Source of the DNA: Quatrionicoccus australiensis
GTDB lineage: Bacteria; Pseudomonadota; Gammaproteobacteria; Burkholderiales; Rhodocyclaceae
NCBI RefSeq assembly: GCF_020510425.1
Contig: NZ_JAHBAH010000001.1
Location: forward strand, 744,001 to 808,000
Direction of reading: 5' to 3'
DNA: 64,000 nucleotides
Both the position numbers and the translations under genes were made by a program. This document shows positions 23,426 through 43,697 of the stretch, one piece after another (the first letter of the stretch is position 1; each line of letters opens with the position of its first letter). The notes below the pieces were generated by a model. It had not been told where the DNA came from, made no database searches, and saw nothing but the letters and a program-made list of their open reading frames with translations.

Positions 23426-23911
23426 TTAGCGTCTGGTCGCCGGATCCCAGTGCTCGGCAATCCGGCCATTCTCGATACGGAACTGGTCGAACCAGGTAGT
23501 GGTGTATTTCACCCCGGGATTCTTTGGGTCGTCGTATTCCCGGACAAAACTCAGGGTCACCCAATCACCGTCGGCCAGGATGGCCACCAGTGGCGCCTTG
23601 ACCCGTGCTTCAATGGGCTTGGCTGTCGCTACCTTGGCAAAGAATTCAACAAAGGCAGCACGCCCGGTCGGCACATTCGGATTGTGCTGAATATAGGACT
23701 CGGCGAGATATTTATCCGCCAACTCCATATGCCCGCCCTCAAACACCTCGCGCCAGAAGTCGTAAACCAGTTTCTTGTTGGCTGCCAAACGGGCATCCGG
23801 GCTGGCCAGAAGCTGTTCATGATGTGGATTCGCAGCTACCGGCACCTGAGCCGCCGCTGAGGTGATCAAGGTGCAGGCAAAAAGAGGGGCACAAAAAAGG
23901 GAAAGTTTCAT
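23426..23911 (-). CDS. Secreted NTF2/SnoaL-like protein
   Basis: 161-residue exported protein. The start at 23911 gives MKLSLFCAPLFACTLITSAAAQV, a signal peptide. The mature part has the pattern KKLVYDFWREVFEGG, ADKYLAESYIQHNPNVPTGR and a final strand GRIAEHWDPATRR, characteristic of SnoaL-like polyketide cyclase/NTF2-fold proteins. These cover isomerases, small hydrolases and binding proteins; no reaction can be assigned. Last gene of the minus-strand redox run; 141 bp separate it from the cytochrome gene upstream. Confidence 0.82.
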   Translation of the reverse strand: MKLSLFCAPLFACTLITSAAAQVPVAANPHHEQLLASPDARLAANKKLVYDFWREVFEGGHMELADKYLAESYIQHNPNVPTGRAAFVEFFAKVATAKPIEARVKAPLVAILADGDWVTLSFVREYDDPKNPGVKYTTTWFDQFRIENGRIAEHWDPATRR

Positions 23912-24052
23912 GTTCGCTTTGATAAAAGGCCTGCTCTCCGACTCAGAGGGCTTGCCGAAAGGCGGGCGCCGACAATGCTTCAGCACGCCCACCGATAGCT
24001 CAGACGTAAAAAGAGCAGCCCACCGAACGATGGTCTGCTCCCGGCAATAACC

Positions 24053-24538
24053 TCAGAGCTTGATGCGGTAATCGTCGTGGCAAGCCTTGCAGGTGGCGGT
24101 AACCTTGCCGAACTGAGCCTTCACGGCTGCCACATCGGAGGTGTTGGCGACCTTGACCAGTTCATTGGTTTCGCGTGCCAGATTGCCGGCTATTTCACCG
24201 GCCTTGCTGCCGGCAGCGAAGAATTCGGGCTTGGTGGCCGTGTCGTGCCAGCCCTTGCCCTGCTCGGTGCCCGCTGCAAACAGGCTGCCGATGCCGGAGT
24301 TGGAGACGGCGGCCAGCGCGGTGGCGGCCTTGATCACCTCGTCCTTGTCGTAGACGGCGGCTTCGAGCGCCAGCTTGACACGGCCGCAGGTCCAGCCGAT
24401 TACCTGGAACACCGATTGCCGCCATTTGATCAGGGTTTCCGGCTTGGCTGCCGCCTGTTGGGCATAGACGCCGGCGGAAGCAGCGAGAAGGCTGCCGCCG
24501 ATGACGGACGCCAGAAGAACTTGGTGAGACTTGCGCAT
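24053..24538 (-). CDS. Class II cytochrome c (cytochrome c'-like), copy 1
   Basis: 161-residue periplasmic monoheme cytochrome. The start at 24538 gives MRKSHQVLLASVIGGSLLAASAGVYAQ, a signal peptide. The heme site CKACHDDYR lies at the extreme C-terminus, as in four-helix cytochrome c'. The N-terminal motif KPETLIKWRQSVFQVIGW and the GTEQGKGWHDT segment are shared with the second copy at 40528-40995; the two are roughly 55-60 % identical by eye. Such proteins bind NO or transfer electrons. It sits between the NTF2-like and peroxiredoxin genes. Confidence 0.92.
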   Translation of the reverse strand: MRKSHQVLLASVIGGSLLAASAGVYAQQAAAKPETLIKWRQSVFQVIGWTCGRVKLALEAAVYDKDEVIKAATALAAVSNSGIGSLFAAGTEQGKGWHDTATKPEFFAAGSKAGEIAGNLARETNELVKVANTSDVAAVKAQFGKVTATCKACHDDYRIKL

Positions 24539-24567
24539 TGGACTTCCTCTATCAGTTTGGTTGAAAC

Positions 24568-24608
24568 GAAAAAAGCCGGGTGAAGGCAAGCAGCCCACAT
24601 CCGGCTTC
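24568..24608 (-). terminator. Probable terminator between peroxiredoxin and cytochrome c' genes
   Basis: 8-bp stem (24572-24579 with 24601-24608) with a long loop of about 21 nt, followed on the minus strand by a TTTTTTCG tract. It lies just after the peroxiredoxin stop and may partly separate that gene from the cytochrome c' gene. Confidence 0.55.
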
Positions 24609-24632
24609 AAGGAACAGGCCCATGTGGGCGGC

Positions 24633-25211
24633 CTATTTTTTTGTTGCCAGGCCCTGGACGACTGCCAAGGCCTGCTCGACATTGGCGGTCGGTGTCACGC
24701 CGCCGATGGTCGCGGCAATCTTGCCGTCCGGTGTGACGATGAAGGTAGTACGTTCGGCAAAACCATGATCGAGATCCTCACCCTTGCTGTCCTTGCGGCC
24801 GGCAACGGCATCCCGGACGGTCAACGCATAGGATTTGGCGATTTTGCCGCTGGCATCGGAGGCAACGACCAGCTTGCCGGCGCAGTAATCGGGATCGGCC
24901 GAAAACTTGTTGAGACGGGCAATGCTGTCGAGCGATACGCCGACGATGCTGGCTCCGGCCGCAGCGAACTTGTCGATGTTCTCGGCAAAGGTATGCGCCT
25001 GGATATTGCAGCCGTTGGTATAGGCCGAGGGATAGAAATAGACGACAACCGGGCCTTTCTTCAGCGCATCCTTGAGCGAGAAGTCAAAGGCCTTGCCAGC
25101 GAGTGAGGCCTGCGTGCGGAACTCCGGTGCGACATCGCCGGCATCGAGCGCAGCCAGGGCAGGCAAGGAAAAGAGTGCGGCGAACAGGCCGGCAGTCAGT
25201 AGTTTTTTCAT
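24633..25211 (-). CDS. Exported peroxiredoxin (AhpC/TSA, BCP-like)
   Basis: 192-residue exported thiol peroxidase. The start at 25211 gives MKKLLTAGLFAALFSLPALAA, a signal peptide. The active-site loop YFYPSAYTNGCNIQAHTF carries the T-x-x-C of peroxiredoxins with the peroxidatic cysteine at about residue 68; a further Cys (DPDYC, about 116) may act in resolution. TTFIVTPDGKIAATIGG is the usual later beta strand. It would detoxify peroxides produced in or entering the periplasm. It is surrounded by cytochrome c genes, which suggests a redox-stress role in that pathway. Confidence 0.88.
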   Translation of the reverse strand: MKKLLTAGLFAALFSLPALAALDAGDVAPEFRTQASLAGKAFDFSLKDALKKGPVVVYFYPSAYTNGCNIQAHTFAENIDKFAAAGASIVGVSLDSIARLNKFSADPDYCAGKLVVASDASGKIAKSYALTVRDAVAGRKDSKGEDLDHGFAERTTFIVTPDGKIAATIGGVTPTANVEQALAVVQGLATKK

Positions 25212-25239
25212 GGATTTTCTCTGTAGGTTAATGGGCACC

Positions 25240-25941
25240 CTAGCGCCCGGAGATGTAATCGGCCAGCGCGTCGATTTCGGCATCGCTGAGGGTTTTCGCC
25301 ATCGTGTTCATGATGCCGCCCGGGCTGTTATGGCGAACGCCGGCGCGCCATTCCATCAACTGCTTCTGCAGATAGCGACGATGCTGCCCGACGATCAGCG
25401 GTGTTTCGGCCGCACTCGGCACACCGCCGGCACTGCGCTCGTTGTGACAACCGACGCACGCGAGAATGCCACGCGCCGGGTCGCCCTCGTGGAACAGTTT
25501 TCTACCGACCGGGTTGTCGCCCTTGCCATCGCCCTGCATCGCCTTCTGACTGGAGAAATAGGCTGCGATGTCGGCGAGATCAACTGCCGACACCGTTTTC
25601 GCCATCACCGCCATGGTTTCGTTCTCACGCTTGCCGGAACGGAACTCGCCAAACTGCTTGATGATGTAGCCAACATTCTGGCCGGCCAGGCGAGGGAACT
25701 TGCCGATATTGCCGACCCCGTCCTCGATGTCATTGGCGTTGCCATCGTGACCGTGGCATTCGACGCAGCGCTCGTCTTCGGCCTTGAGCCGGCCGGCTGC
25801 AGCATTGCCCTGGTGAATCACCGGTGCAGCCACCTTGACCGCAGGCGCGGCTTTCGCCGCGGGCCTGGCGGACTGGGCGAGGAGCGGACCGGCGGCGAGG
25901 AGGAGCAGGCCGCCGAGAAAAAATGACGCAGAGATACGCAT
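25240..25941 (-). CDS. Diheme c-type cytochrome (c4-like)
   Basis: 233-residue periplasmic electron carrier. The start at 25941 gives MRISASFFLGGLLLLAAGPLLAQ, a signal peptide; the ATG overlaps the upstream gene's stop (TGATG). Two class I domains are visible, with heme motifs CVECHGHDG (about residue 60) and CVGCHNERS (about 158). Distal methionines are likely in the IGKFPRLAGQN...ETMAVMAK and GGIMNTMAKTLSD regions. The architecture matches cytochrome c4-type proteins that feed terminal oxidases. Translational coupling to the class II-type cytochrome upstream suggests a paired function. Confidence 0.92.
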   Translation of the reverse strand: MRISASFFLGGLLLLAAGPLLAQSARPAAKAAPAVKVAAPVIHQGNAAAGRLKAEDERCVECHGHDGNANDIEDGVGNIGKFPRLAGQNVGYIIKQFGEFRSGKRENETMAVMAKTVSAVDLADIAAYFSSQKAMQGDGKGDNPVGRKLFHEGDPARGILACVGCHNERSAGGVPSAAETPLIVGQHRRYLQKQLMEWRAGVRHNSPGGIMNTMAKTLSDAEIDALADYISGR

Positions 25942-26321
25942 CAGGATTTCTTGTAAAAATTGTGGCACGCCTTGCAAGCCCGAGAGAGCTCGGTTGCCTT
26001 CAGGTTGGCCGTCTCGAAATCCTTGGCGCTGGCGAGTTTCTGGATATCGTTACTGAGATCCTTGCTCTGTTTCGAAATGGTCACCGCATCAGGCGCATCG
26101 CCTTTTTGCACGTAATAGGCCTCGATCTGCGCAAACATGCCGGCCAACTCCTTTGCATCGGCAATGCTGCCAGGTGCGTTGCCGACACCGACGTTGCCGG
26201 TCAGACTTTTGTGGGTATCTTCGACCGAGCGCATGAAATCATCGTCGATGGCGGTTTCGGCAGAGACAATCCCGATGCTTAACAACAAGGCGGCGAGGAA
26301 AAGTGAAGCTGTTTTTTTCAT
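25941..26321 (-). CDS. Small class II-type cytochrome c
   Basis: 126-residue exported protein. The start at 26321 gives MKKTASLFLAALLLSIGIVSA, a signal peptide. It is predicted helical and ends CKACHNFYKKS, a C-terminal heme site like that of cytochrome c'. The motif MRSVEDTHKSLTGNVG near the mature N-terminus is unlike the two cytochrome c' copies, so it is a different subfamily. The stop overlaps the diheme cytochrome start by one base. Confidence 0.88.
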   Translation of the reverse strand: MKKTASLFLAALLLSIGIVSAETAIDDDFMRSVEDTHKSLTGNVGVGNAPGSIADAKELAGMFAQIEAYYVQKGDAPDAVTISKQSKDLSNDIQKLASAKDFETANLKATELSRACKACHNFYKKS

Positions 26322-26371
26322 GATGATTGGGGAGTGATTCATATTTTTTTGCTCCGACCGGTCAACACGAC

Positions 26372-26410
26372 ACAACAGCCCGAAAAGCCGGAGGCCTTGC
26401 GGGCTGTTGT
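26372..26410 (-). terminator. Hairpin between the DUF1501 gene and the cytochrome genes
   Basis: 11-bp perfect inverted repeat (26372-26382 with 26400-26410), 17-nt loop, immediately downstream of the DUF1501 stop on the minus strand. No T-tract follows. It may mark a processing site or a weak terminator separating the two halves of the run. Confidence 0.5.
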
Positions 26411-26441
26411 TCATGTATCTGGAACGGATGTACGACCAGGA

Positions 26442-27893
26442 CTAGGCCAGGAGTTCCTTGATGACCTTGCCGTAAACCACGGTCGGACGCTCGGAACGAC
26501 CGTTGTTCAGGAAGGTCGTCTTGAGGTGATCGAGGCCGAGCAAATGCAGCACGGTGGCGTGCAGGTCATAGGTATCGACTGCTGTGTCCTTGTCGGCCAC
26601 TTGCAGACCGATCTCGTCGGTTGCGCCATGGGTGTAGCCCGCCTTGACGCCAGCGCCCGCCATCCACTGGGTGTAACCCCACGGATTGTGGTCGCGGCCA
26701 GTACCGCTTTCGCCCCAAGAGGTGCGGCCGAATTCGGAGGTCCAGACAACCAGCGTCGATTCGAGCAGACCGCGTGACTTCAGGTCGGCAAGAAGACCGG
26801 CGATCGGCTTGTCCACCATGCGGGCCTGGGTGCCGTGATTGCCTTCCAGGTCGCTGTGGGCATCCCAGCTGCGGCGCTCGTTGTCCGAAACGTTTTCCGG
26901 GTGGCCGGAGACGACATGCACGAAACGCACGCCGCGCTCGACCAGGCGACGGGCGCGTAGCAGCACCTTGCCGTAGCTCTCGCTGGTCTTGTCGTCGAGA
27001 CCGTAGAGCTTCTTGGTGGCATCGCTTTCCTTGTCGAGATCGACGGCTTCCGGGGCAGCGCGCTGCATGCGGTCGGCCAGTTCGTAGGACTCGAGACGGG
27101 CGCGCAGTTCGCTGTCTTCCGGGCGACGATCGGCACCGATCCGGTTGAGCGTCTTGAGCAGATCGAGCGAACCGCGCTGCTGCGCGACCGAACGCAGCTC
27201 CGGGCGTTCGAGATAAAGAATCGGGGAATCGCCTGGACGGAACGGCGTGCCCTGATAGACGGCAGGCAGGAAGCCGGAGCTCCAGTTTACCGAACCGGCG
27301 CTCGGCTCACGGTCACCGTTGTAGAGCACGACGTAGGACGGCAGGTCCGGATTCAGCGAACCCAGCGCGTAGTTCACCCACGCGCCGAGCGACGGCCGGC
27401 CCGGATTGACGTCACCGGTGTTGAGCTTGAGGATGGAAATATCGTGCGTCGCGCCAACCGTCACGCTCGACTTGATGAAGGCAATCTTGTCGGCATGTTC
27501 GGCCAGGTTGGGCAGCAGATTGGAGAACCATGCACCGCTGTCACCGTACTGCTTCCAGGTCCGCTTGTCGGAAGCGAACAGCTTGCCGACCCCACCCTGG
27601 GTACTGGTCTTGATGCCCTTCATGAAAGAAGCCGGGGTTTCCTTGCCAGCCAGCTTGATCAATTCGGGCTTGTAGTCATAAAGGTCCAGCGTCGAAGGCG
27701 CGCCGTTCTGGTGCAACCAGATCACGGACTTGACCTTGGCCGGAAAATGCGGCGACTTGGGGGCCAAGGGATTGGCCAGGTCGGCCGCCGAAGCGGCATT
27801 GATGAAACCGATACCCGGGATGAAACCGCTGGCAGCGGCACCGCCCAGACCAAGACCGGACTTGATCAGAAAATCACGACGATTGATGCTCAT
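26442..27893 (-). CDS. DUF1501 protein, Tat-exported, alkaline-phosphatase-like fold
   Basis: 483-residue protein with a twin-arginine signal (NRRDFLIKSGLGLGG) at the N-terminus, then KSVIWLHQNGAPSTLDLYDYKP, typical of DUF1501 (PF07394). Later motifs VVWTSEFGRTSWGE and GRDHNPWGY (about residues 384-410) look like metal-binding loops; the family is regarded as related to sulfatases and alkaline phosphatases. The substrate is unknown. DUF1501 genes are typically paired with PSCyt2/PSD1 genes, abundantly in Planctomycetes and Verrucomicrobia, and exactly that pair is present here: the partner is 35 bp upstream. Confidence 0.9.
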   Translation of the reverse strand: MSINRRDFLIKSGLGLGGAAASGFIPGIGFINAASAADLANPLAPKSPHFPAKVKSVIWLHQNGAPSTLDLYDYKPELIKLAGKETPASFMKGIKTSTQGGVGKLFASDKRTWKQYGDSGAWFSNLLPNLAEHADKIAFIKSSVTVGATHDISILKLNTGDVNPGRPSLGAWVNYALGSLNPDLPSYVVLYNGDREPSAGSVNWSSGFLPAVYQGTPFRPGDSPILYLERPELRSVAQQRGSLDLLKTLNRIGADRRPEDSELRARLESYELADRMQRAAPEAVDLDKESDATKKLYGLDDKTSESYGKVLLRARRLVERGVRFVHVVSGHPENVSDNERRSWDAHSDLEGNHGTQARMVDKPIAGLLADLKSRGLLESTLVVWTSEFGRTSWGESGTGRDHNPWGYTQWMAGAGVKAGYTHGATDEIGLQVADKDTAVDTYDLHATVLHLLGLDHLKTTFLNNGRSERPTVVYGKVIKELLA

Positions 27894-27928: not shown

Positions 27929-30259
27929 TTAGAAGCGATAGGCGAAGTCGTTGGAGTTGGCGACGGTATGAACCAGGTCGACGAAGGCAGCACCGCGCAC
28001 CGGATTGACCAGACGGGTGTCCTTGACGCCGAGCGGCACGGCTGCTTCGAACTTGCCGTCAGCCACCTTCTGTTGCACGGCAGCCTCTTCCTTGACCAGG
28101 AAGGCTTTGAGCGCGGCGGATTCGGCCTTGCTCGGCTCACGCGAGAAGAGGATCTGATACAGGCGGCTGATCTGGGCGTTTTCGTCCTTGCCGGCTTCGT
28201 TGATGACGCGACCAGCCAAGGCCTGCGACCAATTGACCGTGATGTCGCTGTTGAACAGGGTCAGGGCCTGCAACGGCGTCGTCGTCACGTCACGCTTGTG
28301 GTGTGCCTGCGACGGATTGGCCGGGTCGAAATTGGAAAGCAGCGGATACGGCAGGCTACGGCGGCTGAAGATATAGATGCTGCGACGATTCCAGTCATCC
28401 TTGTCCTTCGACACTACCCAAGCGCGGTCGCCGTTGAAATCGGCCGCACCGGAAACCAGGGCTTGGTTGATCGGCGGGAAAACGCCCGGACCACCCACCT
28501 TGTCGTTCAGCTCACCGGAGGCATAGAGCAGTGCATCGCGGATTTCCTCGGCTTCAAGACGCTTGCGCGGATAGACGGCAAGCAACTTGTTCTGCGGATC
28601 GGCCTTGGCAACATCCGGACGTTCGGCAGAAGACTGGCGATAGACGCTGGACAACAGGATATCGCGTTGCAGCTTCTTGACGCTCCAGCCGTTCTTGACG
28701 AAATTGTCGGCCAGGTAATCGAGCAGTTCCGGATTGGTGGGCTTCTCGCCGGCACGGCCAAAATCGGCCGGGGTCGGTACGATGCCCTTGTCGAACAACT
28801 GCGCCCAGACGCGATTCACGTAAACACGGGCAGTCAGCGGATTGTTGGCACTGGACAACCAATTGGCGAGTGCCGTGCGACGACCGGAAGACGTAGCCGT
28901 CGGCTTGATCTCGATCTTGTCGCCGCCCCACAGTGCCGGGATGACTGGCTGAACTTCCTCGAGCGGCCGTTCGTGAATACCGCCAAAGCGCACGAAGGTC
29001 GGCGGCGAATCGGAGTGGCCCAATTCGGTCGCCGTGGTGATGTTGACCGAACCGCTGACCGGACGCAGATCGTCAAACTTGCGCAACTCAGCCTGCAGCT
29101 TCTGGTATTCCTTCCAAGCCTCCGGCTTATCCGCGCTATATTGCGGATGCCCTTCCTTGCTGGCTTCGCGCAGATAGCCGGCAACACCACCATCAGCACC
29201 GGCAACAGTCTTGTGGCGGAAATTCACCCAACGATCCAGCGCATTCCATTCCTTTTCCGGCTTGAAAATCGCTTCGCGGCTATCCGTCAGATAACGCTCT
29301 TTCTGATACTTGACCGACGCATCACGATACTTGTCGTCAATGACGCGCTGCTTGTCACGAATCTCCTTGGTTGCCGCACGATATTTCGCCTGCTGCTCGG
29401 CAAACCTCTTGTCCCAGGCCGATTCGGTGCCCTTGGCGAGCGGCGACGACTGATCGAACGAGGTATTGGCGAAGAAGGCCTGCAGCTGGAAGTAATCCTT
29501 CTGGCTCAGCTTGTCGGTCTTGTGATTGTGGCAACGGGCGCAACCAGTGGTCGAGGCCAGGAAGGTCTCGCCGATGGTATCGGTGATGTCGGTGGCGATC
29601 TGATACTTGCGCTGCACGAGGTCGCGTGAATTGGCGTTGTCCGGATAACCGGCCAGGAAGCCGGTGGCGATTTTCGCCTCCTGGCTGTCCGGATAGAGTT
29701 CGTCGCCGGCAACCTGCTCCTTGATGAAGCGGTCAAACGGCTTGTCCTGATTGAAGGCGCTGATCACGTAATCGCGGTAACGCCAGTTGTTCGGACGGGT
29801 ATTGTCATTCTGGAAACCGGAGGAATCGGCATAACGCGCCAGATCCAGCCAGCGGCGCGCCTGGCGCTCACCGAAGTGATGCGAGGCAAGCAGGCGGTCA
29901 ACCAGTTTTTCGTAGGCATCCGGCGACTTGTCATTGACAAAGGCCTTGACCTCTTCCGGCGTCGGCAGCAAGCCCCAGGTATCCAGCGTCGCGCGCCGGA
30001 TGAAGGTGGCGCGGTCCGCATCCGGCGACGGCTTCAGACCCTTGGCTTCGAGCTGGGCAAGAATGAATGCATCGATCGGCTTGCGCACCCATGCCTTCTG
30101 GGCAACCGCCGGCACCGGCGGCACTGCGACGGCAACATAAGGCGACCACTTGGCCGACGACGCCTTCGCCACATCAATGCCGACCTTATTTTCTTCGGCT
30201 GCAATCGCCACCACCGTCGTGAAGCACGACAGCACGGCAAGATAAGCAATTTTTTTCAT
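27929..30259 (-). CDS. PSCyt2/PSD1 (DUF1549-DUF1553) protein with heme motif
   Basis: 776-residue exported protein. The start at 30259 gives MKKIAYLAVLSCFTTVVAIAAEE, a signal peptide; a longer frame from 30409 does not resemble one. The DUF1549 domain (about residues 50-260) shows FIRRATLDTWGLLPTPEEV, RRWLDLARYADSSGFQND and the hallmark GCARCHNHKTD with a c-type heme site at about residue 240. The DUF1553 domain (about 490-740) shows RTALANWLSSANNPLTARVYVNRVW (split here as TALANWL and ARVYVNRVW) and later LPYPLLSNFDPANPSQAH. The family is of unknown function. Proposed partner of the DUF1501 protein downstream. Confidence 0.9.
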   Translation of the reverse strand: MKKIAYLAVLSCFTTVVAIAAEENKVGIDVAKASSAKWSPYVAVAVPPVPAVAQKAWVRKPIDAFILAQLEAKGLKPSPDADRATFIRRATLDTWGLLPTPEEVKAFVNDKSPDAYEKLVDRLLASHHFGERQARRWLDLARYADSSGFQNDNTRPNNWRYRDYVISAFNQDKPFDRFIKEQVAGDELYPDSQEAKIATGFLAGYPDNANSRDLVQRKYQIATDITDTIGETFLASTTGCARCHNHKTDKLSQKDYFQLQAFFANTSFDQSSPLAKGTESAWDKRFAEQQAKYRAATKEIRDKQRVIDDKYRDASVKYQKERYLTDSREAIFKPEKEWNALDRWVNFRHKTVAGADGGVAGYLREASKEGHPQYSADKPEAWKEYQKLQAELRKFDDLRPVSGSVNITTATELGHSDSPPTFVRFGGIHERPLEEVQPVIPALWGGDKIEIKPTATSSGRRTALANWLSSANNPLTARVYVNRVWAQLFDKGIVPTPADFGRAGEKPTNPELLDYLADNFVKNGWSVKKLQRDILLSSVYRQSSAERPDVAKADPQNKLLAVYPRKRLEAEEIRDALLYASGELNDKVGGPGVFPPINQALVSGAADFNGDRAWVVSKDKDDWNRRSIYIFSRRSLPYPLLSNFDPANPSQAHHKRDVTTTPLQALTLFNSDITVNWSQALAGRVINEAGKDENAQISRLYQILFSREPSKAESAALKAFLVKEEAAVQQKVADGKFEAAVPLGVKDTRLVNPVRGAAFVDLVHTVANSNDFAYRF

Positions 30260-30862
30260 GAACCACTCCAAACAAGAAAAATTCAGAATCACCCTATAAA
30301 ACCCGCACCTGAAAAACCGCCCGGGCAACAACACTCGACAAGCATTAGCAGCCATCGTGCCAAGGGGAAATCCATCTTGAACGAAGCAAAAATATCCAGA
30401 AAAAAACAATTCAACACATTGATTTTATTTATTTAAATAAAAAAACAAAAACCAGTCATCGTGCATGAGCGGCTCAGAACCACACTCGGAACAGTGTCTC
30501 TCCGGCAGCAGATAAAACACTCACCTGCTGCGCAGGAGACAGGAAAACAAAAAGCCTGAATGCAATTAAAGCCAAATAATCGACAAAACACCGAACAACC
30601 CATAGCCGGGAGAAAATTTGAATATGGGCCAGATGCAGCAGAACACCACCAGAAGTGCACCTGCAGCAACACCCTTTGTTTATTTGTTTTGCATATAAAA
30701 CTTAAGTTAATAAACTTACAATTTTTAAAACTATGCCTTTTTAACATGTAGTTACTGACACATTTTCTTACATAATTTTCGATAAAAATTTACAAGTCGA
30801 TATCTGGCACGCGCATTGCTGAAATGAATCACTTTTGTTCATTTCCAATGGAGAGTTTTGCC
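30260..30862. promoter_or_regulatory. AT-rich divergent control region
   Basis: About 600 bp without a gene, strikingly AT-rich between about 30380 and 30850 compared with the surrounding GC-rich DNA. It separates the divergently transcribed PSCyt2/PSD1 run (minus) and TonB-receptor run (plus), so promoters for both should lie here. Poly-A stretches and TA-rich words around 30420-30450 and 30700-30800 could host promoters or a nucleoid-protein site. CTGACA at about 30755-30760 may be a -35 element, but I could not pair it convincingly. Small frames in it (30433-30747, 30560-30751) lack signals of being genes. Confidence 0.6.
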
Positions 30863-33806: not shown

Positions 33807-33856
33807 CCGTTTTGCCGCCTGCGATGCGCGCCCGGCGCGCCTTTTCCGGAGAAGAC

Positions 33857-36192: not shown

Positions 36193-38331
36193 TTGCTCGG
36201 CTTCATCCTGCGCCTAGTGGCCGCGCTCTGGCTGGGCGGCGCCAGCGCCGCTCCGGCCGGGCCGGGCTACATCGGCAACCCGGCCTGCGCTGCCTGTCAT
36301 GCCGAGGCGGCGCGCGCCTGGCAAGGTTCGCATCACGCCCATTCGATGCAGCCGGCCACCCCGCAAAGCGTGCTCGGCGACTTCGCCGATGCGAGTTTCG
36401 AGCAGCACGGGCAGCGCAGCCGCTTCTTTCGCCGGGGCGGCAAGTTCTGGGTCAATACGCAAGGGCCGGACGGCCGGGTGCAGGATTTCGAAATTCGCTA
36501 CACCTTCGGTATCGAGCCGCTGCAGCAATACCTGATCGCCCTGCCCGGCGGTCGCCTGCAGGCATTTTCGCTCGCCTGGGACAGTCGACCGCACCAGGCT
36601 GGCGGCCAGCGCTGGTACGCGCTCTATCCGGACAACCCGCCAGCGCCCGGCGATCCGACGCACTGGAGCGGACGCGACCAGAACTGGAACTTCATGTGCG
36701 CCAGTTGCCATTCAACCGGACTGGACAAGAATTTCGATCTCGGCAAGAACAGTTATGCGACGCGCTGGGCGGAAATCAGCGTCGGCTGCGAAAGCTGCCA
36801 CGGCCCCGGTGCGCGTCACCGGGACTGGGCGCGCGGTAAGCGGAGCGGCGATAACGGCCTGATCGCTCTCGCCGCAATGAATTCCCTTGCCTGGCGCTTC
36901 ACCGAACCGGGCCAGAAAATCGCCAGGCCGCAGGGCGACGTTGCCGCAGCGAAGGAGGCAAGCGAAGCCTGCTACGGTTGCCATTCGCGCCGCCAGGAAT
37001 TGCTGGCCAAGGCCGAGCCCGGCGCCCGCTTTCTCGACAATTACCTGCCGCGCCTGCTCGAACCGACGCTGTACCACGCCGATGGCCAGATCGACGGCGA
37101 GGTCTTCGAATACGGCTCCTTCATGCAGAGCCGGATGCAGGCGGCCGGCGTCACCTGCAGCAACTGCCACCAGACGCACAGCCTCAAGCTCAGGGCGGAA
37201 GGCAACGCGCTGTGCGCGCAATGCCACCGCAGCGAGCATTACGACCGCAGCAACCACCACCATCACGCGGAAGGCTCGGCCGGCGCCCTGTGCACCAGCT
37301 GCCACATGCCACAGAAGACCTATATGGGCGTTGATGTACGGCACGATCACGGCTTTCGCATCCCCGACCCGACGCTGGCCGGGGGCAAGCTACCGAACAC
37401 CTGCGGCCAGTGCCACGCCGAGCGCGACCGCGCCTGGGCCAGCGAGCAACTGCAGCGGTGGACCGCGGGAAAAACGACAAAACCGCCCCATTTTGCCAGC
37501 GCCCTGGGTTCGGGCTCAGACAGCTTGCCGGCGCTCTCTGCGGCGCTCGGCATCAATTGGTCCGGCATCGTCCGCGCCAGCGCCCTCAACCTGCTGCGCG
37601 GCGCGGCAACGCGTGAAAGTGCAGAGATCATTGCCACGGCAGCCAACGATGCCGACGACCTGGTCCGTCTCGGCGCGGCCCGCGCCCTGCCTACCCTGCC
37701 CGGGCGCGCGGCGGCAACACTGGCTGGTCGCCTGCTGGCCGACCCGCGCCGGGCGGTACGCATCGAGGCGGCGCGCTCCCTGGCCGGGATACCGGGCCAC
37801 TTTCTACCCCCCGAAACGGCGGCTCGCCTGCAGGCGGCCCTTGGCGAACTCGAAACCGCCGAGCTGGCCGCCGGCGAACGCCCGGAGTCGCATTTCAACC
37901 TGGCGCAATTGCACGCCCGGCAAGGCAAGGCCAGTGCCGCTGAACAGGCCTATCGCAGCGCACTGCGCCTGGCCCCCGACTTCTCGCCGGCCCGGCTCGG
38001 CCTCACCGACCTGTACCGGATGCAAGGACGTGACCAGGAAGGGGAAAAACTGCTCCGCCAGGCAGTTGACCGTCCGGAAGTGGCCAATGCGCTGGGCCTG
38101 CTGCTGATCCGGCAAGCTCGCCTGGGCGATGCCCTGCCCTGGCTGGCGCAGGCGGCTGCCGGCGCCCCGGAGAATCCCGGCTTTGCCCTCACACATGCCC
38201 TTGCACTAGCCGAAAGCGGCAATCGCGAAGGGGCCAGGGCGGTGCTGGACGATGCGCTCCGGCTGCACCCGCAGGCGCAGAGCCTGCGCGTGGCAAGACA
38301 CCAATTGACGGAAGACCATACAAGAAACTGA
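36193..38331 (+). CDS. Octaheme c-type cytochrome with HEAT-like and TPR repeats
   Basis: Exported multiheme cytochrome, about 712 residues. Eight CxxCH motifs, at about residues 32, 169, 199, 260, 322, 341, 367 and 404, including CAACHAE, CESCHGPG, CSNCHQTH and CTSCHMPQ. A His cluster (NHHHHAEG) lies between hemes 6 and 7. Residues about 450-545 look like HEAT repeats (DLVRLGAARALPTL, AVRIEAARSLAGI); about 555-700 look like TPRs (SHFNLAQLHARQGKASAAEQAYRSA in two pieces). No ATG start: TTG at 36193, or CTG at 36184 which would add Met-Lys-Gln and give a better signal peptide and overlap the sulfatase stop. Probable periplasmic electron carrier or reductase with a protein-interaction arm. Confidence 0.88.
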   Translation: MLGFILRLVAALWLGGASAAPAGPGYIGNPACAACHAEAARAWQGSHHAHSMQPATPQSVLGDFADASFEQHGQRSRFFRRGGKFWVNTQGPDGRVQDFEIRYTFGIEPLQQYLIALPGGRLQAFSLAWDSRPHQAGGQRWYALYPDNPPAPGDPTHWSGRDQNWNFMCASCHSTGLDKNFDLGKNSYATRWAEISVGCESCHGPGARHRDWARGKRSGDNGLIALAAMNSLAWRFTEPGQKIARPQGDVAAAKEASEACYGCHSRRQELLAKAEPGARFLDNYLPRLLEPTLYHADGQIDGEVFEYGSFMQSRMQAAGVTCSNCHQTHSLKLRAEGNALCAQCHRSEHYDRSNHHHHAEGSAGALCTSCHMPQKTYMGVDVRHDHGFRIPDPTLAGGKLPNTCGQCHAERDRAWASEQLQRWTAGKTTKPPHFASALGSGSDSLPALSAALGINWSGIVRASALNLLRGAATRESAEIIATAANDADDLVRLGAARALPTLPGRAAATLAGRLLADPRRAVRIEAARSLAGIPGHFLPPETAARLQAALGELETAELAAGERPESHFNLAQLHARQGKASAAEQAYRSALRLAPDFSPARLGLTDLYRMQGRDQEGEKLLRQAVDRPEVANALGLLLIRQARLGDALPWLAQAAAGAPENPGFALTHALALAESGNREGARAVLDDALRLHPQAQSLRVARHQLTEDHTRN

Positions 38332-38369: not shown

Positions 38370-38714
38370 TTATTTGCCGTCGAACTTCTGATTGGCTGCC
38401 TTGACATCGGCCAGGATCTTGTCGCGCGCAGCACGGGCGGCCAGTTGTTCGTCGGTGATCGCCTTCGAGATCAGCTGGATATCGAGATTGCCTTCAGCCA
38501 CCAGGCAATCGAGGTAAGTGTTGGTGTCCTTCTGGTAGGCGGTCACCTTGTCCAGACTCTTGTTGTAGGCATCGGGATTGCGCTGGTCGACCGTGACGGC
38601 AGCCGGCTTGGCGCCGCAGCGCGCGCTGCTCCAGGCACCATTGGCGAGGTTGCCGGCCTGGGCACCAGCGGCGGCCAGGAAAATCATGGAAAGAAAAAAT
38701 ACAGGTTTGATCAT
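38370..38714 (-). CDS. Small secreted protein of unknown function
   Basis: 114-residue exported protein. The start at 38714 gives MIKPVFFLSMIFLAAAGAQA, a signal peptide. The mature part has two cysteines (SSARCGAKPAAV and YLDCLVAEG) that could form a disulfide, and is otherwise helical with many Lys and Asp. No family recognised. It is the last gene of the minus-strand run with the PepSY protein, from which it is separated by a hairpin. Confidence 0.75.
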   Translation of the reverse strand: MIKPVFFLSMIFLAAAGAQAGNLANGAWSSARCGAKPAAVTVDQRNPDAYNKSLDKVTAYQKDTNTYLDCLVAEGNLDIQLISKAITDEQLAARAARDKILADVKAANQKFDGK

Positions 38715-38747
38715 CAGGATTGCTCGGAAATAAAAGGGAAAATTCAA

Positions 38748-38792: not shown

Positions 38793-40415
38793 TCAAGCCA
38801 CCGGGTTATCGGTGACCAGTACGGGCTCCGGACGTGACGTCCGGGCAGTGCGCGGCTTGTTTTTCGGCTTGACCGTGAATTTCAGGCGCTTCCAGCCGAT
38901 GAACAACGAGCTGACGCCGAGCACCAGGCCGAAGCCGATCCACAGCAGCATCCACGCATCCCAGACCGGGCGCACGTAGAGAAAGCCGATGTCCCAGTAA
39001 TGCAGCGCGTTGAACAGCCAGCGGTAGGCGCGGCGGCTGTTGTCCTGGCGTAGAAGCAGGCGGCCGTCCTGCGGGTCAAGATAGAAACGGGTGCCGACCG
39101 CGTCATCGAGGTCGACGCGCACTACCGGCAAAGGACGATCGTAGCTGCCGCGACCGTGGCGCAGGTAGTAGTAGCTGTCGTACTCGGTAATCAGCGACTG
39201 GGTCGCATTGACCTGGTCACCGGCCAAACGCTTCACGGCATCGGTCAGTGCGATGCTGCCAAAACTCTCGACTGAAGCGGCCACCGGCTGGCGTTGGCCG
39301 TTGCGGTCATAGGCCAGGAGCACGGCCTGATCACCCAGGCGCCGCCAGCTCAGTTCGACAGCATCGCCAGATGCGCCAGCCAGGGCGACCGGTTTCCAGT
39401 CGCGTGCAGCTGCCGGCAGGCCGCTGCCGTAGTAGCGCACCAGTTCCTCGCGGCTCGGTGTGGCCGGCGTGAACAGCTTCCAGGTATTGCCGTTGAAGAA
39501 GCCGCTGAGCGCCCAGAGGAAGGCAAAGCTGCCGCCGATCAGCCCGGCCCAGAAATGCCAGCGGAACCAGAAGGCGCGGTAGGGATGCACGCGGCCCTCG
39601 GCATAGGTTGCCTTGCCGAACAAGCCTGGCCGCCAGCGCAACCAGCCGACGATGAGGCCGGTCAGGCACGCGACGAAAGCGGCAATCACCGACCACATCA
39701 GGATTTCGGCGCGCGATTCGCTCCAGCTCGTGAGATCGAGGAAACGGAAGAAATGCAGCCAGTTGCCGGCCCAGTAAAGGCCGCGCTCGACACGCGTCGA
39801 GGCATGCACGACATCGCCGCTCTTCGCCGAGATGTAGAGCTCACTGCCCGAGCCGTCATCGATGGCGAAATGATGGAAGGGGCGCAACGCATCCTGGTTG
39901 CGGATGATCATCGGCTTGTCGACGGTTTCCAGGAAATGGACCGGCGTCGCCAGGCCGCTAGCCTCGTTGCCGTTAACCCACTGTTCGGCGATCCTGCCCG
40001 CCGTTTCGGCCGAGGTTTCAAGCAGATGTCCATCGATGGCGGAAATGGCAAAACGCTTGCCGGAAGTATCCTCGACCAGCCATTGCGGTTGTCCGGCGTG
40101 GCGCAACAGGCGAGCCTCGGTGACGGTGTTCGCCACCGGCTTGCCCTGCCCCTTGCCTGCCTCCTGGCCGGAACCCGCAGGTTTGCCGGCGCTACCGGCC
40201 TGCTTGCGTTCAGCCGCGCTGCGTTCCCAGGCCTCCCCCAGGCTCAGCCAGCCGGCTTCCGGGTTTAGCACTTCGGCGTGGGCCAGTTGCTGCGGCCGGG
40301 TCTGGTTCATCTGCACGGAATACAGGATGACCAGCCCGGAGAAAAACCACAGGGTCATGAACAGGGCCAGGGCGACCCCTGTCCAGCGATGCACCAGAAA
40401 TAGCAGGCGTTTCAT
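38793..40415 (-). CDS. PepSY domain inner-membrane protein
   Basis: 540-residue membrane protein. Membrane segments are visible at about residues 10-32 (VALALFMTLWFFSGLVILY), 235-260 (ILMWSVIAAFVACLTGLIVGW, two parts), 285-310 (WAGLIGGSFAFLWALSGFF) and 495-520 near the C-terminus (DAWMLLWIGFGLVLGVSSLFIGW, two parts). Large periplasmic PepSY-type regions lie between them (LLRHAGQPQWLVEDTSGKRF). A low-complexity Gly/Lys/Gln insertion sits at about 72-92. Such proteins are often linked to ferric reduction near TonB receptors, or to cytochrome b-like electron transfer. Preceded by its own intergenic space after the cytochrome c' terminator. Confidence 0.87.
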   Translation of the reverse strand: MKRLLFLVHRWTGVALALFMTLWFFSGLVILYSVQMNQTRPQQLAHAEVLNPEAGWLSLGEAWERSAAERKQAGSAGKPAGSGQEAGKGQGKPVANTVTEARLLRHAGQPQWLVEDTSGKRFAISAIDGHLLETSAETAGRIAEQWVNGNEASGLATPVHFLETVDKPMIIRNQDALRPFHHFAIDDGSGSELYISAKSGDVVHASTRVERGLYWAGNWLHFFRFLDLTSWSESRAEILMWSVIAAFVACLTGLIVGWLRWRPGLFGKATYAEGRVHPYRAFWFRWHFWAGLIGGSFAFLWALSGFFNGNTWKLFTPATPSREELVRYYGSGLPAAARDWKPVALAGASGDAVELSWRRLGDQAVLLAYDRNGQRQPVAASVESFGSIALTDAVKRLAGDQVNATQSLITEYDSYYYLRHGRGSYDRPLPVVRVDLDDAVGTRFYLDPQDGRLLLRQDNSRRAYRWLFNALHYWDIGFLYVRPVWDAWMLLWIGFGLVLGVSSLFIGWKRLKFTVKPKNKPRTARTSRPEPVLVTDNPVA

Positions 40416-40527: not shown

Positions 40528-40995
40528 TCAGTCCTTCTTCTTGAAATCGTCGTGGCAAGCCTTGCAAGTGCCTTGCAGCTTGCCAAACTGGGCCTTGACG
40601 GCAGCCTGGTCGCCAGTGGCGGCGATCTTGGCCAGTTCATTGGCTTCCTTGGCGAAGTTGCCAGCCAGTTCGCCGACGCGCTTGCCTTCGGTAAACAGTT
40701 CCGGCTTGACCGTGGTGTCATGCCAGCCCTTGCCCTGCTCGGTACCCGGGGCGTACAGGGCACCGAGGCCGGAATTGGCAATGGCAGCCGTGCTGTTGGC
40801 GGCACGGATCACTTCTTCCTTGTTGTAGGTACCTTCGACATTGGCCTTGATGCGGGCGCTGTTCCAGGCAACGACCTGATACACCGACTGGCGCCACTTG
40901 ATCAGGGTTTCCGGTTTCGGTGCCTGCTGCGCCAGGGCGCTGGCGGAAACGACGACGGCCAGGGCTGCGACCAGGGGTTTGATGGATTGCTTCAT
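40528..40995 (-). CDS. Class II cytochrome c (cytochrome c'-like), copy 2
   Basis: 155-residue exported monoheme cytochrome. MKQSIKPLVAALAVVVSASALAQQ is a signal peptide. The heme site CKACHDDFKKKD is at the C-terminus. Nearly every conserved block of copy 1 recurs (KPETLIKWRQSVYQVVAW, GTEQGKGWHDTTVKPELF). It lies downstream of a cytochrome b561 gene, a common partner that would reduce it from the quinol pool. Hairpin terminators lie both upstream and downstream, so its expression may be partly independent. Confidence 0.93.
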   Translation of the reverse strand: MKQSIKPLVAALAVVVSASALAQQAPKPETLIKWRQSVYQVVAWNSARIKANVEGTYNKEEVIRAANSTAAIANSGLGALYAPGTEQGKGWHDTTVKPELFTEGKRVGELAGNFAKEANELAKIAATGDQAAVKAQFGKLQGTCKACHDDFKKKD

Positions 40996-41037: not shown

Positions 41038-41054
41038 ACGGATGGGGGATTCGG

Positions 41055-41759
41055 TTACCAGGCGGGCGCCGCAACGGCAGCCGGCGGAGGTGGCGGTTCG
41101 GCGGGCAGCAGCCCGCCGCTGGCGGCATAAACAGTGCTGCTGGCAATCAGTGCGGCAACGGCAAAAGCAACAGCGCTGCGCAACGGGCTATGCGGATGCT
41201 CAACCGGCGGCACAGACACATCGTCCTTCCAGCCGGTCAACATCGGTTTGAGCAGGTTTTCCTTCTTGACCCGGGTGTAGAAGGCAATCGCCGCCAGATG
41301 CAGGCCGACGATCGCCAGCAGCCCATAGAAAACCAGGGAATGCAGACCACGCGACTGATCCGAGGCTTCCTTGCTGAGTAGCACGGCAAGCGGCCCCTGG
41401 AAGGTGATGTCGTCGTTGGCGAACAGGCCAGTGAATACTTGCGCCGTAGTCAGTGCCAGCAGGGCAAGCACCGCCAGCGCACCGAGCGGGTTGTGTCCGA
41501 CTCCGCGCCATTCACCACGCAGATAGGCCCTGATCGCGGCCGAGCCGCGCACGAAGTTGGCAAAACGGGCGGTGGGCGCACCGACGAAGCCCCAGACGAC
41601 ACGAAAAATGACCAGACCGAGAATGAACAGACCACTGCGGCCATGCCATTCGATCAGCTCGCCACCGATCTGACCGGTCACCACGGCCGTCACGATGGCG
41701 GCGGCCAGCAACCAGTGGAACAGGCGGGTCGGCAGATCCCAGACACGTTGACGACTCAT
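41055..41759 (-). CDS. Cytochrome b561-type diheme membrane cytochrome
   Basis: 234-residue inner-membrane cytochrome b (Ni-Fe hydrogenase B-type/b561 family). Helices are visible at about residues 12-30 (TRLFHWLLAAAIVTAVV), 42-60 (LFILGLVIFRVVWGF), 97-115 (ALAVLALLALTTAQVFTGLF in two parts) and 145-165 (SLVFYGLLAIVGLHLAAIAFY). Likely heme ligands are His in FHWLL, WHGRSG, RGLHSLVFYG and VGLHLAAI. An extra C-terminal helix and Pro-rich periplasmic tail (PAEPPPPPAAV) follow. It probably passes quinol electrons to cytochrome c' encoded next. Confidence 0.9.
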   Translation of the reverse strand: MSRQRVWDLPTRLFHWLLAAAIVTAVVTGQIGGELIEWHGRSGLFILGLVIFRVVWGFVGAPTARFANFVRGSAAIRAYLRGEWRGVGHNPLGALAVLALLALTTAQVFTGLFANDDITFQGPLAVLLSKEASDQSRGLHSLVFYGLLAIVGLHLAAIAFYTRVKKENLLKPMLTGWKDDVSVPPVEHPHSPLRSAVAFAVAALIASSTVYAASGGLLPAEPPPPPAAVAAPAW

Positions 41760-41771
41760 CTTGCGTTCTCC

Positions 41772-42662
41772 TCAGGTGCGCAGGTGCTGGTTGAAGAAGG
41801 CGACGGTGCGCTGCCAGGCCAGCTTGGCGGCGGACTGGTCGAAGCGCGGCGTGGTGTCGTTGTTGAAGCCATGCTGGACGCCGGGATAGATATGCGCCTC
41901 GTAGCGCGTTCCGGCCGCCTTCAGCGCCGCTTCGAATTTTGGCCAACCGGCGTTGATGCGCTCGTCGTTCTCGGCGTACTGGATGAGCAGTGGCGCCTTG
42001 ATCTTCGCCACGTCCTCGGCCGGCGGCTGGCTGCCATAGAAAGGCACGCCGGCAGCCAGGTCGGGCAGACGGATGGCCAAGTAATTGACGATGCCGCCGC
42101 CGTAGCAAAAACCGACCGCACCGACCTTGCCATTGCCTTCCGGCAACTGCTTGAGCAGACCGGCGGCAGCGACGAAATCCTCGCGCGTCTTGCTCTGGTC
42201 GAGCTTGGGAAACAGCTCACGCGCCTTGTCCTCGTCGCCGGGGTAGCCGCCGAGCGGGAACAGCGCATCCGGGGCAAAGGCGATAAAGCCGTCGAGCGCC
42301 AGGCGGCGGGCGATATCCTCGATGTGCGGATTGAGGCCGCGATTTTCATGAATTACCAGTACCGTCGGCAGCTTGCCCTTGGCATTGGCCGGTTTCACCA
42401 GGTAGCCGCGCGCTGTGCCATAACCCTGCGGCGAAGCGAACTCGACGAAGCGCGCCGTGATCCGCGGGTCGTTGTCGCGCACCTGCTGCGCCTCGGCGAA
42501 ACGCGGGCTGAGCGCCTGCAACAAGCCTTCGGCCGTAGCTGCACCGAGCGCAAACTTGCCGGCCGACTTGAGGAAGTCGCGGCGCGGAATCAGGCCATGC
42601 ACGTATTTGTCGAACAGTTTCAGGACTTCCGGATGAAAATCCTTGGCGGTCAGTCGGCTCAT
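41772..42662 (-). CDS. Dienelactone hydrolase family protein, Tat-exported
   Basis: 296-residue alpha/beta hydrolase. A Tat motif (PRRDFLKSAGKFALGAA) at about residues 26-43 predicts export. The nucleophile elbow GFCYGGG (about 177-183) carries the Cys typical of dienelactone hydrolases rather than Ser; the acid lies near AENDERINAG and the His in VQHGFNND (about 262). The class hydrolyses lactones or esters from aromatic or other catabolism. The gene is 28 bp after the SMP-30-like gene and 12 bp before cytochrome b561, an operon combining two lactone/ester hydrolases with a cytochrome pair. Confidence 0.9.
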   Translation of the reverse strand: MSRLTAKDFHPEVLKLFDKYVHGLIPRRDFLKSAGKFALGAATAEGLLQALSPRFAEAQQVRDNDPRITARFVEFASPQGYGTARGYLVKPANAKGKLPTVLVIHENRGLNPHIEDIARRLALDGFIAFAPDALFPLGGYPGDEDKARELFPKLDQSKTREDFVAAAGLLKQLPEGNGKVGAVGFCYGGGIVNYLAIRLPDLAAGVPFYGSQPPAEDVAKIKAPLLIQYAENDERINAGWPKFEAALKAAGTRYEAHIYPGVQHGFNNDTTPRFDQSAAKLAWQRTVAFFNQHLRT

Positions 42663-42689
42663 GGGGAAACTCCTTTTTTATCGATCTGC

Positions 42690-43697
42690 TTACTTGGCGC
42701 GTCCGGCGTAACCCGCCGTCTGCGTGGCGATGCGGTAGGCTGAACCGCGCCCGACGACATATAGCGTCTTCTTGCCGGCGCCGGCAAAGGCAAGGTTCTG
42801 CGGCTTTTTCGGCAGGGCGATGCTGCCCAGCGCCGTGCCGTCGGCGGCGAATACTTCGATGCCGACATTGGAGGCGACATAGAGGCGTCCCTTTTCATCG
42901 ACCGCCAGGCCATCGGCGCCGCTCGACCAGGTGCCGTTGTCGGCCTTGCTCCAGCCGGCCAGCCTGGCGAAATTGCGGCGGGCACCGACCGAACCGTCGG
43001 CCGCCACGTCATAGGCCAGCACATGCTCGCCCAGCGTATTGGCGACGTAGAGGGTCTTTTCGTCGGGACTGAGCTGGATGCCGTTGGGGCGCTCGATATC
43101 GGCTGCCAGACGCTTCAGGATGCCGTCCGGCGTGATGTAATAGACGGCCGGCTTGGCAAATACCTTGGTCGGTGCCGGCTGGCCCGGCGCGACATTGACA
43201 CCGGAGTCGGTGAAATAGACGCCGCCGCGCTTGTCGACCACCAGATCGTTCGGGCGGCCGAAAGGCAGGCCTTCGAAATTGTCGGCCAGCGTGCGCTCCT
43301 TGCCCTGCGGATAAACCACGCCAACGCGGGTATCGGCGACCTGCACCGAGATCAGCTCGCCCTTGCCGTTGAAGCCCAAGCCATTCGAGCCATTGCTGTT
43401 CTCGAGGAAAGGCGAGGTCGAGCCGTCAGCGGCAATACGCGTGATCCGGTTAGCCTGGGTTTCGGTAAAGGCAAAAGTGCCGTCGGGCAGCGCCACCGGG
43501 CCCTCGGTGCCCTTGAAACCGTCCTTGATCAGTTCAATCCTGGTCCCTGCCGCAACCACGCCGGGAATCGCCTGGCTTACTGTTTCCTGAGCCATCGCCG
43601 AAGCAATCAGCAGGCTGCCGCCGAGTGCGGCAAGAATGCTGCGTGCGGATTTGCTCAGGGCAAAACGAGAGGTTTGGACAGGAACATGCAAGGACAT
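42690..43697 (-). CDS. Exported SMP-30/gluconolactonase family protein
   Basis: 335-residue exported six-bladed propeller. The signal region ends LLIASAMAQE (about residue 37); RBS GGAGA upstream. Family motifs include FKGTEGPVALPDGTFAFTE (with the metal-binding Glu), GRPNDLVVDKRGGVYFTDSG (about 151-170), PNGIQLSPDEKTLYVANT and SGADGLAVDEKGRLYVAS. Members hydrolyse lactones or phosphoesters with Ca or Zn. It heads the minus-strand run that also makes a dienelactone hydrolase, cytochrome b561 and cytochrome c'. Confidence 0.9.
   Translation of the reverse strand: MSLHVPVQTSRFALSKSARSILAALGGSLLIASAMAQETVSQAIPGVVAAGTRIELIKDGFKGTEGPVALPDGTFAFTETQANRITRIAADGSTSPFLENSNGSNGLGFNGKGELISVQVADTRVGVVYPQGKERTLADNFEGLPFGRPNDLVVDKRGGVYFTDSGVNVAPGQPAPTKVFAKPAVYYITPDGILKRLAADIERPNGIQLSPDEKTLYVANTLGEHVLAYDVAADGSVGARRNFARLAGWSKADNGTWSSGADGLAVDEKGRLYVASNVGIEVFAADGTALGSIALPKKPQNLAFAGAGKKTLYVVGRGSAYRIATQTAGYAGRAK

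Follow-up and report, generated by a model that had tools for sequence, protein, structure and literature searches.

The SfnR/sigma54 sulfone-sulfonate regulon of Pseudomonas (sfn, msu) has flavin monooxygenases as its targets. P. aeruginosa also has arylsulfatase and TonB-linked sulfate-ester clusters (atsA, sft), and the sft-type regulator belongs to the LysR family. A third related system is the PSCyt2/PSD1-DUF1501 gene pair of Planctomycetes, Verrucomicrobia and Acidobacteria. In freshwater Verrucomicrobia, according to a published account (PMC5615132), PSCyt genes are numerous, often lie near sulfatases and have unknown function; such proximity would fit a sulfur link beyond Proteobacteria. 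Here we compare with these systems an island of 16 genes at positions 23426-43697 of a 64,000-nucleotide stretch of Quatrionicoccus australiensis, hereafter the window (C1:744001-808000 of a 4.31-Mb genome in two contigs). We consider it probable that this island is the core of an SfnR-type sulfur-starvation regulon, with TonB uptake and periplasmic sulfur release. The regulator class is known, while the putative target set (TonB receptor, PSCyt2/PSD1, DUF1501, cytochromes, lactonase and molybdenum hydroxylase) differs from that of Pseudomonas and appears to be new as far as the literature was searched. In the open-licence literature that we searched, neither PSCyt2/PSD1 nor DUF1501 is linked to SfnR or to sulfur starvation.

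An earlier note, made from the letters of this DNA, had placed the 16 genes; all are present, with domains assigned by Pfam (30 window proteins scanned; Table 1). The PSD1 run and the SMP-30 run (run 3) are on the minus strand, and the genes for the TonB receptor, sulfatase and octaheme cytochrome are on the plus strand. The divergent arrangement around one AT-rich control region also holds: the intergenic kilobase 30001-31000, the only AT-rich one, has a GC content of 0.476 versus 0.57-0.70 for all other 1-kb windows.

The earlier note took the three runs to be linked, and their control elements bear this out, since each run starts with a sigma54 promoter. The genome has 13 exact matches to TGGCACG-N4-YTGCW, against 3 for the reversed control, and three of the 13 head the three runs (binomial p-value 2.9e-5 for the region marked out by that note). 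Two of the remaining ten are divergent at a quinoprotein-like gene (C1:1044291-1044537 of the window genome), near which we see another sigma54 activator gene (approximately 1035350) and a TonB receptor gene (1039635). The remaining exact sites include, by eye, those of glutamine synthetase, nitrate-reductase-like, flagellar and transporter genes.

We scanned 84,980 species genomes for PSD1 and found 517 stretches encoding relatives. The best 80 were kept, giving 77 loci: 48 proteobacterial ones and a contrast set of 29 (Planctomycetes, Acidobacteria, Verrucomicrobia and one Proteobacteria metagenome-assembled genome, or MAG). Neighbour counts use 47 of the 48 (L096 left out). Within the fetched flank of these 47, DUF1501 is found in 44, the monoheme protein, diheme cytochrome and peroxiredoxin in 39 each, and the TonB family in 31, followed by SMP-30 (21), cytochrome c' (19), b561 (16), rhodanese (16), PepSY (7) and the dienelactone hydrolase, DLH (6). 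Some run-3 gene is present in 33, and a run-3 gene together with a TonB receptor in 22, a figure that counts receptors without an identity floor. Among the 33 loci with full flanks (the others are shortened by contig ends), 24 have the receptor and 26 a run-3 gene. The contrast loci share the domains and the neighbourhood (DUF1501 in 21/29); the proteobacterial set, a clade of its own, differs in its additional cytochromes, peroxiredoxin and receptor, which 0/29 contrast loci have, and no contrast locus has a run-3 gene either.

The runs are co-conserved, so the outcome of genome comparison that the earlier note had named as refuting the unit was not obtained, although the PSD1 and receptor modules can occur apart within the genus. 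Two genomes of the same genus (G002, G007) have PSD1, DUF1501, cytochromes and peroxiredoxin and no receptor of the window family. In four others (G016, G047, G051, G054) the receptor is accompanied by DLH and cytochrome c', in two of them by SMP-30 as well, and in three it lies beside cysT/cysW. In G083, from another family, PSD1 and two receptors lie within approximately 17 kb, with SMP-30 and cytochrome c'. Among 100 relatives, PSD1 is found in 4 genomes and the TonB family in 7 at E 1e-30, with a strong match in six; these scans scored at most 8 (receptor) and 16 (activator) candidates per genome, and absences are not final.

The proteobacterial PSD1 sequences form one clade (32 rows, 100/100 support) with one Acidobacteria MAG inside. 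Cellvibrio is nested among betaproteobacteria, and the window PSD1 groups with Azonexaceae and Zoogloea. From the locus counts and this tree we conclude that the PSCyt2/PSD1-DUF1501-cytochrome-peroxiredoxin set is really conserved across beta- and gammaproteobacteria, and that it probably moves between lineages. The earlier note had also included the arylsulfatase and the octaheme cytochrome in the unit. We dropped both as conserved core, since nothing in the 47 loci matches either protein with 30% identity or more across half the length (a 24% sulfatase match is found in three); they look like local additions. The window sulfatase resembles the P. aeruginosa atsA/sft systems in being nearest to the 1hdh/4cxk arylsulfatase group and in following a TonB receptor, but it is not conserved with the rest of the island, and the LysR-family regulator of sft is unlike the SfnR-type activator found here. 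Sulfur genes near PSD1 at other loci include an SsuA-like protein (under cut-off) and an arylsulfotransferase. Second PSD1-DUF1501 modules adjoin the first at L046-L051, L053 and L080 (Zoogloea and kin), L081-L082 (Paucibacter) and L070 (Methylobacillus), and several have their own promoter elements. The second copies of Zoogloea and Paucibacter are 50-55% identical to the window PSD1 and form a separate branch.

At a score of at least 11/12, sigma54 sites in the proteobacterial loci precede 25 of 60 PSD1 genes, 22 of 52 TonB genes and 13 of 18 rhodanese genes. Internal genes rarely have one (DUF1501 0/59, monoheme 1/51, diheme 0/48, peroxiredoxin 2/49, cytochrome c' 0/22), and the PSD1 genes of the contrast set never do (0/31). 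The sequence evidence supports co-regulation of the three runs well.

A gene for an SfnR-type sigma54 activator lies at C1:741318-742673, 1.3 kb to the left of the window, and was found as the best own-genome match to the SfnR-like protein of locus L061. Its neighbours are a TOBE-domain gene, a TonB-like gene and ExbB (window 4-861), and the gene for the cysteine synthase CysK is not far off. In the L061 activator, the relative that was scanned, the sigma54-interaction domain begins at residue 28, leaving little or no N-terminal sensor domain. Relatives on plasmids adjoin msuE, together with sfnG, an SfnB-family gene or an alkanesulfonate monooxygenase gene (surroundings opened for 3 of 315 matching records, 30 of them listed). 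Identity was compared for two of these: the window-genome activator is 59% identical to one beside msuE and an alkanesulfonate monooxygenase gene and 58% identical to one beside sfnG/msuE. Ten of the 100 relatives have the activator, namely 8/8 of those with PSD1 or a strong TonB match and 2/92 of the others (hypergeometric p-value 2.4e-10, uncorrected for kinship; counting one weak receptor match as a carrier gives 8/9). A sigma54 activator is among the neighbours in seven loci, and the SfnR-type activator is found in 37 of 40 genomes with a proteobacterial PSD1, a sample that leaves out L049, L051, L053, L082, L083, L085, L091 and L096 (near copies or short contigs).

The putative activator site, CTGYTG-N6-CARCAG, emerged from a count of dyads 5' of the sigma54 sites. 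The TGCTG dyad with gap 6 is found in 14 of 84 upstream stretches, with a maximum of 3 in 20 shuffles, and gap-6 dyads number 52 in 1.05 Mb of proteobacterial loci, where other gaps give 0-22; the contrast set has 0. Dyad and promoter occur as a pair 96 times in 38 of 52 proteobacterial loci, against 0 in every one of five shuffles, and 9 times in four of six receptor-only loci (shuffles 0-1). The 29 contrast loci hold a single pair, which is the shuffle level (0-1), and 200 kb of other regions of the window genome hold none. The genes 3' of the 96 pairs, named from translations by eye unless a family model is given, are PSD1 (36), TonB (19), rhodanese (15), a sulfonate-type transporter porin (5), MBL (2), three single cases and 16 others. 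Among these 16, translations show three TonB transducer genes, two RND pumps, two arylsulfotransferases, the exported protein at window position 12627 with two relatives, and the window molybdenum hydroxylase.

In the window, six sigma54-like sites (score at least 10) have a dyad with at most 2 mismatches within 40-270 bp, and all six are 5' of genes of the set (12634, 12857, 17385, 30347, 30805, 43762). The first three lie to the left of the island, so the 20 kb of the earlier note are too narrow a limit; the regulon most likely extends beyond 23426-43697. The genome has eight strict dyads, four of which fall between 743,045 and 787,917, i.e., within the 45-kb span between the activator gene and SMP-30 (p-value 7.9e-7, with bounds chosen after seeing the sites). 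As in the window, a dyad lies 162 bp 5' of the PSD1 promoter in L044.

The same dyad is found 5' of a sigma54 site at msuE in all three opened plasmid regions (P. aeruginosa 0, Burkholderia pyrrocinia 0 and B. glumae 1 mismatches). The P. aeruginosa msuE starts 58 bp past the first base of the promoter; these stretches also hold a few further 1-mismatch dyads unpaired with a promoter. Forty genomes, 30 from among the 48 loci and 10 from activator-bearing relatives, were scanned for exact pairs at 80-110 bp spacing; the two versions of the scan yielded 7 and 5 sites, and 0 control hits. The 12 genes that follow encode a TonB receptor, PSD1, RND, rhodanese (2), Mo-hydroxylase, ExbB (3), DUF6152, SsuD and a DszB/SsuA-like protein. 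The SsuD gene is from Derxia (TIGR03565, 595 bits; cut-off 518), and the product of the Methylobacillus gene is nearest to DszB. Five of the 12 pairs (receptor, PSD1, both rhodaneses and Mo-hydroxylase) are in loci from which the dyad was derived, and seven, SsuD and the DszB-like gene included, are outside them. The Zoogloea ExbB genes carry the full dyad-promoter element. In its activator, sigma54 promoters, msuE dyad and known sulfur genes as putative targets (SsuD, DszB-like, arylsulfotransferase) the system is thus like the Pseudomonas regulon, and we presume that the dyad is an SfnR-type activator site common to it and the msu operons.

Several observations weigh against a sulfur-starvation regulon controlled in this way. 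For the promoters, stricter scoring leaves a site at only the 25/60 PSD1 and 22/52 TonB starts given above; SMP-30 has its own sigma54 promoter in 1 of 23 cases, the window gene itself, and at most other loci lies downstream of PSD1 on the same strand; and a loose sigma54 pattern occurs in the window at background (100 versus 90 expected). For the dyad, the relaxed form alone is not enriched genome-wide (16 sites versus 19 for the reversed pattern), and 11 of 12 opened dyad sites outside the region have no sulfur gene recognisable by eye. No sigma54 site scoring at least 10 accompanies the two perfect dyads next to the activator gene in that 3-kb locus. The window promoters of PSD1 and TonB have only a 2-mismatch dyad, the weakest of the six, with one half intact. 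The exact scan at 111-141 bp spacing found pairs in 0/40 genomes, although a looser scan has many there; two of the 96 pairs, at L055 21778 and L060 1341, appear fortuitous; and many of the loci are close kin, so that counts over them are not independent. Finally, 3 of the 40 PSD1 genomes lack the activator at E 1e-90.

A sulfur-starvation regulon would work as follows. When sulfate is scarce, the activator would be made and would turn on three operons: that of the receptor, that of PSD1, DUF1501 and cytochromes, and that of the lactonase and cytochromes. It would also turn on the molybdenum hydroxylase and the rhodanese-like protein, and perhaps the TonB-ExbB genes beside it. The substrate brought in by the TonB receptor would be an organosulfur compound in short supply, with aryl sulfate esters or sulfonates the likeliest candidates. 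Sulfate or sulfite would be released from it in the periplasm by the sulfatase, DUF1501, other hydrolases and the heme-bearing PSD1, with cytochromes, b561 and PepSY carrying electrons and the peroxiredoxin guarding the reaction. The released sulfate would then be taken up by the adjacent Sbp-CysTW importer. The substrate and the roles of PSD1 and DUF1501 in this scheme are what we infer. If the scheme is right, the scope of the SfnR regulon, so far small sulfones and sulfonates, would come to include TonB-dependent uptake and processing in the periplasm.

The peroxiredoxin admits another reading, in which the PSD1/cytochrome/peroxiredoxin operon belongs to the sulfur-starvation response for protection (peroxide, redox balance) and not for desulfurisation. 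We regard this main rival as unlikely, yet it draws on the presence of peroxiredoxin in 39 of the 47 loci and on the strong induction of the 1-Cys peroxiredoxin LsfA in sulfur-starved P. aeruginosa, as a published account has it (PMC12581299), which fits the window peroxiredoxin and feeds the protective reading as well. The linkage to a TonB receptor (31/47) and to a lactonase (21/47) points instead to a substrate, as do the fewer loci linked to sulfonate-type importers and arylsulfotransferase.

The earlier note had suggested a single pathway and named sulfated or lignin-like substrates for a test of it; the likely theme is sulfur acquisition under SfnR-type control and not a separate pathway for lignin-like carbon. 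A catabolic pathway feeding sulfated or lignin-like aromatics into carbon metabolism would account for a molybdenum hydroxylase, an SMP-30 lactonase and a DLH hydrolase in one control circuit. We rejected it as quite improbable: among the 30 Pfam-scanned window proteins there is no ring-cleavage dioxygenase or CoA ligase, and control is predicted to be by an SfnR-type activator whose other targets are sulfur genes. The receptor raises the further idea of a TonB-linked system for iron or metal uptake and reduction. Its plug resembles siderophore and pesticin receptors, and PepSY proteins can be siderophore reductases; against it stand the sulfur-type promoters and activator and the sulfate transport genes next door, and we rejected this explanation as the least credible of the three. 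A polysaccharide utilisation locus was rejected as well, with no glycoside hydrolases or lyases among the same 30 proteins.

Within sulfur acquisition under SfnR-type control, it is tempting to hypothesize that PSCyt2/PSD1 and DUF1501 make up a heme-dependent periplasmic enzyme that cleaves TonB-delivered organosulfur compounds by a new desulfurisation chemistry; we hold this as a tentative possibility. The window PSD1 protein has both Pfam domains, and its CxxCH (C240, C243, H244) is invariant in 49 aligned sequences. A search of PDB sequences with the PSD1 profile gave two matches, the best at E 1.2. The DUF1501 profile weakly matches the C-terminal part of sulfatases (best E 0.003), and of its 18 matches with E no higher than 1, 15 bear the name of a sulfatase or a sulphohydrolase. 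The DUF1501 protein has no Cys and no CxPxR or SxPxR nucleophile motif, and its profile comparison with the window sulfatase gave a probability of 1.0 on a scale of 0-100 (E 0.054). DUF1501 may be a hydrolase related to sulfatases; the name sulfatase is not warranted. The window sulfatase itself is by its motif of the canonical formylglycine type: its CSPTR fits CxPxR, the genome has one match to PF03781 (formylglycine-generating enzyme), and its best solved relative is the arylsulfatase 4cxk (E 2.5e-64).

If such an enzyme exists, the numerous PSCyt/PSD genes of Planctomycetes and Verrucomicrobia would encode relatives of it that act on sulfated or sulfonated substrates. Tying the proteobacterial PSCyt2/PSD1/DUF1501 clade to a sulfur-hunger regulator and a defined DNA signature makes the function of these unknown families testable, and the carrier genera with cultured members include Zoogloea, Duganella, Derxia and Methylobacillus. 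The dyad-plus-promoter signature could also be used to find further unknown sulfur genes.

Table 1. Coordinates of the genes and putative control elements of the window
Feature	Position	Strand	Evidence
Sigma54-like promoter, 5' of exported protein (11884-12627)	12634..12649	-	
Perfect putative dyad CTGCTG-N6-CAGCAG between two divergent sigma54 sites	12742..12759	.	
Sigma54 promoter, 5' of molybdenum hydroxylase genes	12857..12872	+	
Two-subunit molybdenum hydroxylase ([2Fe-2S] and molybdenum cofactor subunits)	12903..15592	+	no NCBIfam cut-off reached
Sigma54 promoter with 1-mismatch dyads, 5' of exported rhodanese-like gene	17385..17400	+	
Rhodanese-like exported protein	17396..17947	+	PF00581 E 0.0017, under cut-off; family in 19/56 loci
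MBL-fold exported protein, possible regulon member	21887..23335	+	PF00753
SnoaL-like protein	23426..23992	-	PF12680
Cytochrome c'	24053..24682	-	PF01322
Exported peroxiredoxin (AhpC/TSA)	24633..25283	-	PF00578
Diheme cytochrome c	25240..25977	-	PF00034
Monoheme protein, CKACH, conserved beside PSD1	25941..26414	-	
DUF1501 protein	26442..27893	-	PF07394 432.6 bits
PSCyt2/PSD1 heme protein, likely start 30259	27929..30259	-	PF07583 282.6 bits, PF07587 306 bits
Sigma54 promoter TGGCACGATGGCTGCT, 5' of PSD1 operon	30347..30362	-	
Degenerate putative activator dyad, 2 mismatches, common to two divergent promoters 162 and 262 bp away	30525..30542	.	
Sigma54 promoter TGGCACGCGCATTGCT, exact consensus, 5' of TonB-sulfatase-octaheme operon	30805..30820	+	
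TonB-dependent receptor (plug and barrel), N-terminal coiled-coil-like extension by eye	30863..33748	+	PF07715, PF00593
Arylsulfatase, CSPTR motif	33812..36187	+	PF00884
Octaheme cytochrome, C-terminal HEAT/TPR repeats	36193..38331	+	8 CxxCH, Pfam
Small exported protein, no family	38370..38747	-	
PepSY membrane protein (PepSY_TM)	38793..40415	-	PF03929
Second cytochrome c'	40528..40995	-	PF01322
Cytochrome b561	41055..41759	-	PF01292
Dienelactone-hydrolase family, YghX-like	41772..42662	-	PF01738; NF041440 429.6 bits, under cut-off 460
SMP-30/gluconolactonase	42690..43697	-	PF08450
Sigma54 promoter TGGCACGCTTGCTGCT, 5' of SMP-30 operon	43762..43777	-	
Putative activator dyad CTGTTG-N6-CAGCAG (minus strand), 0 mismatches, 122 bp upstream of 43762 promoter	43900..43917	.	
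Sulfate importer CysW, CysT, Sbp	44146..47180	-	TIGR02140, TIGR02139, NF008022 above cut-off

The earlier note took nearly all of the island proteins to have signal peptides. By a rough rule (a basic residue, then a hydrophobic stretch), 14 of the 16 reach a mean hydropathy of 1.5, PepSY and b561 among them being membrane proteins, but the DLH and octaheme proteins fall short. By eye, a Tat-like RRDFL is seen in the DUF1501 and DLH proteins. At E 0.001, Pfam gave no match for the 157-amino-acid monoheme protein or for a 125-amino-acid protein. Eight CxxCH motifs are present in the octaheme protein and one in the PSCyt2/PSD1 protein.

The island has cysW, cysT and sbp on its right, while an MBL-fold gene and one for a protease-like protein lie on its left. 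Homologues of the MBL-fold gene in L044 and L034 carry the promoter-dyad element, while the window gene has weak candidate sites only, outside the six promoter-dyad sites. TonB receptors of the window family (window 30863-31200; L037, L038-L041, L175) begin by eye with a coiled-coil-like stretch, LQAEIxRLKxALE, which precedes the likely TonB box. The receptor-only islands L038-L041, of the same genus, encode DUF6152 and exported proteins with PDFSGIW or GQPDVQGHWSN motifs; one of the latter was scanned and has no Pfam match. Some of these islands carry promoter-dyad elements. RND pump genes recur near PSD1 (L036, L055, L058, L060, L061, L070, L071, L091, L113, L177), in two families each present in 11 of 56 loci. 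The promoter-dyad element is directly 5' of an RND gene in L070, L071 and L177 (in the last outside the PSD1 locus). Our guess is that these pumps might export the desulfurised product.

At window 50746-51455, two short open reading frames share the same start, MGIRTPVTAVKGRCPRPLDDGDPD, and are probably repeated non-coding DNA. Just right of the window, locus L155 has by eye a recombinase-like gene at 3227 and two nearly identical transposase-like genes (6531-7556 and 8667-9692).

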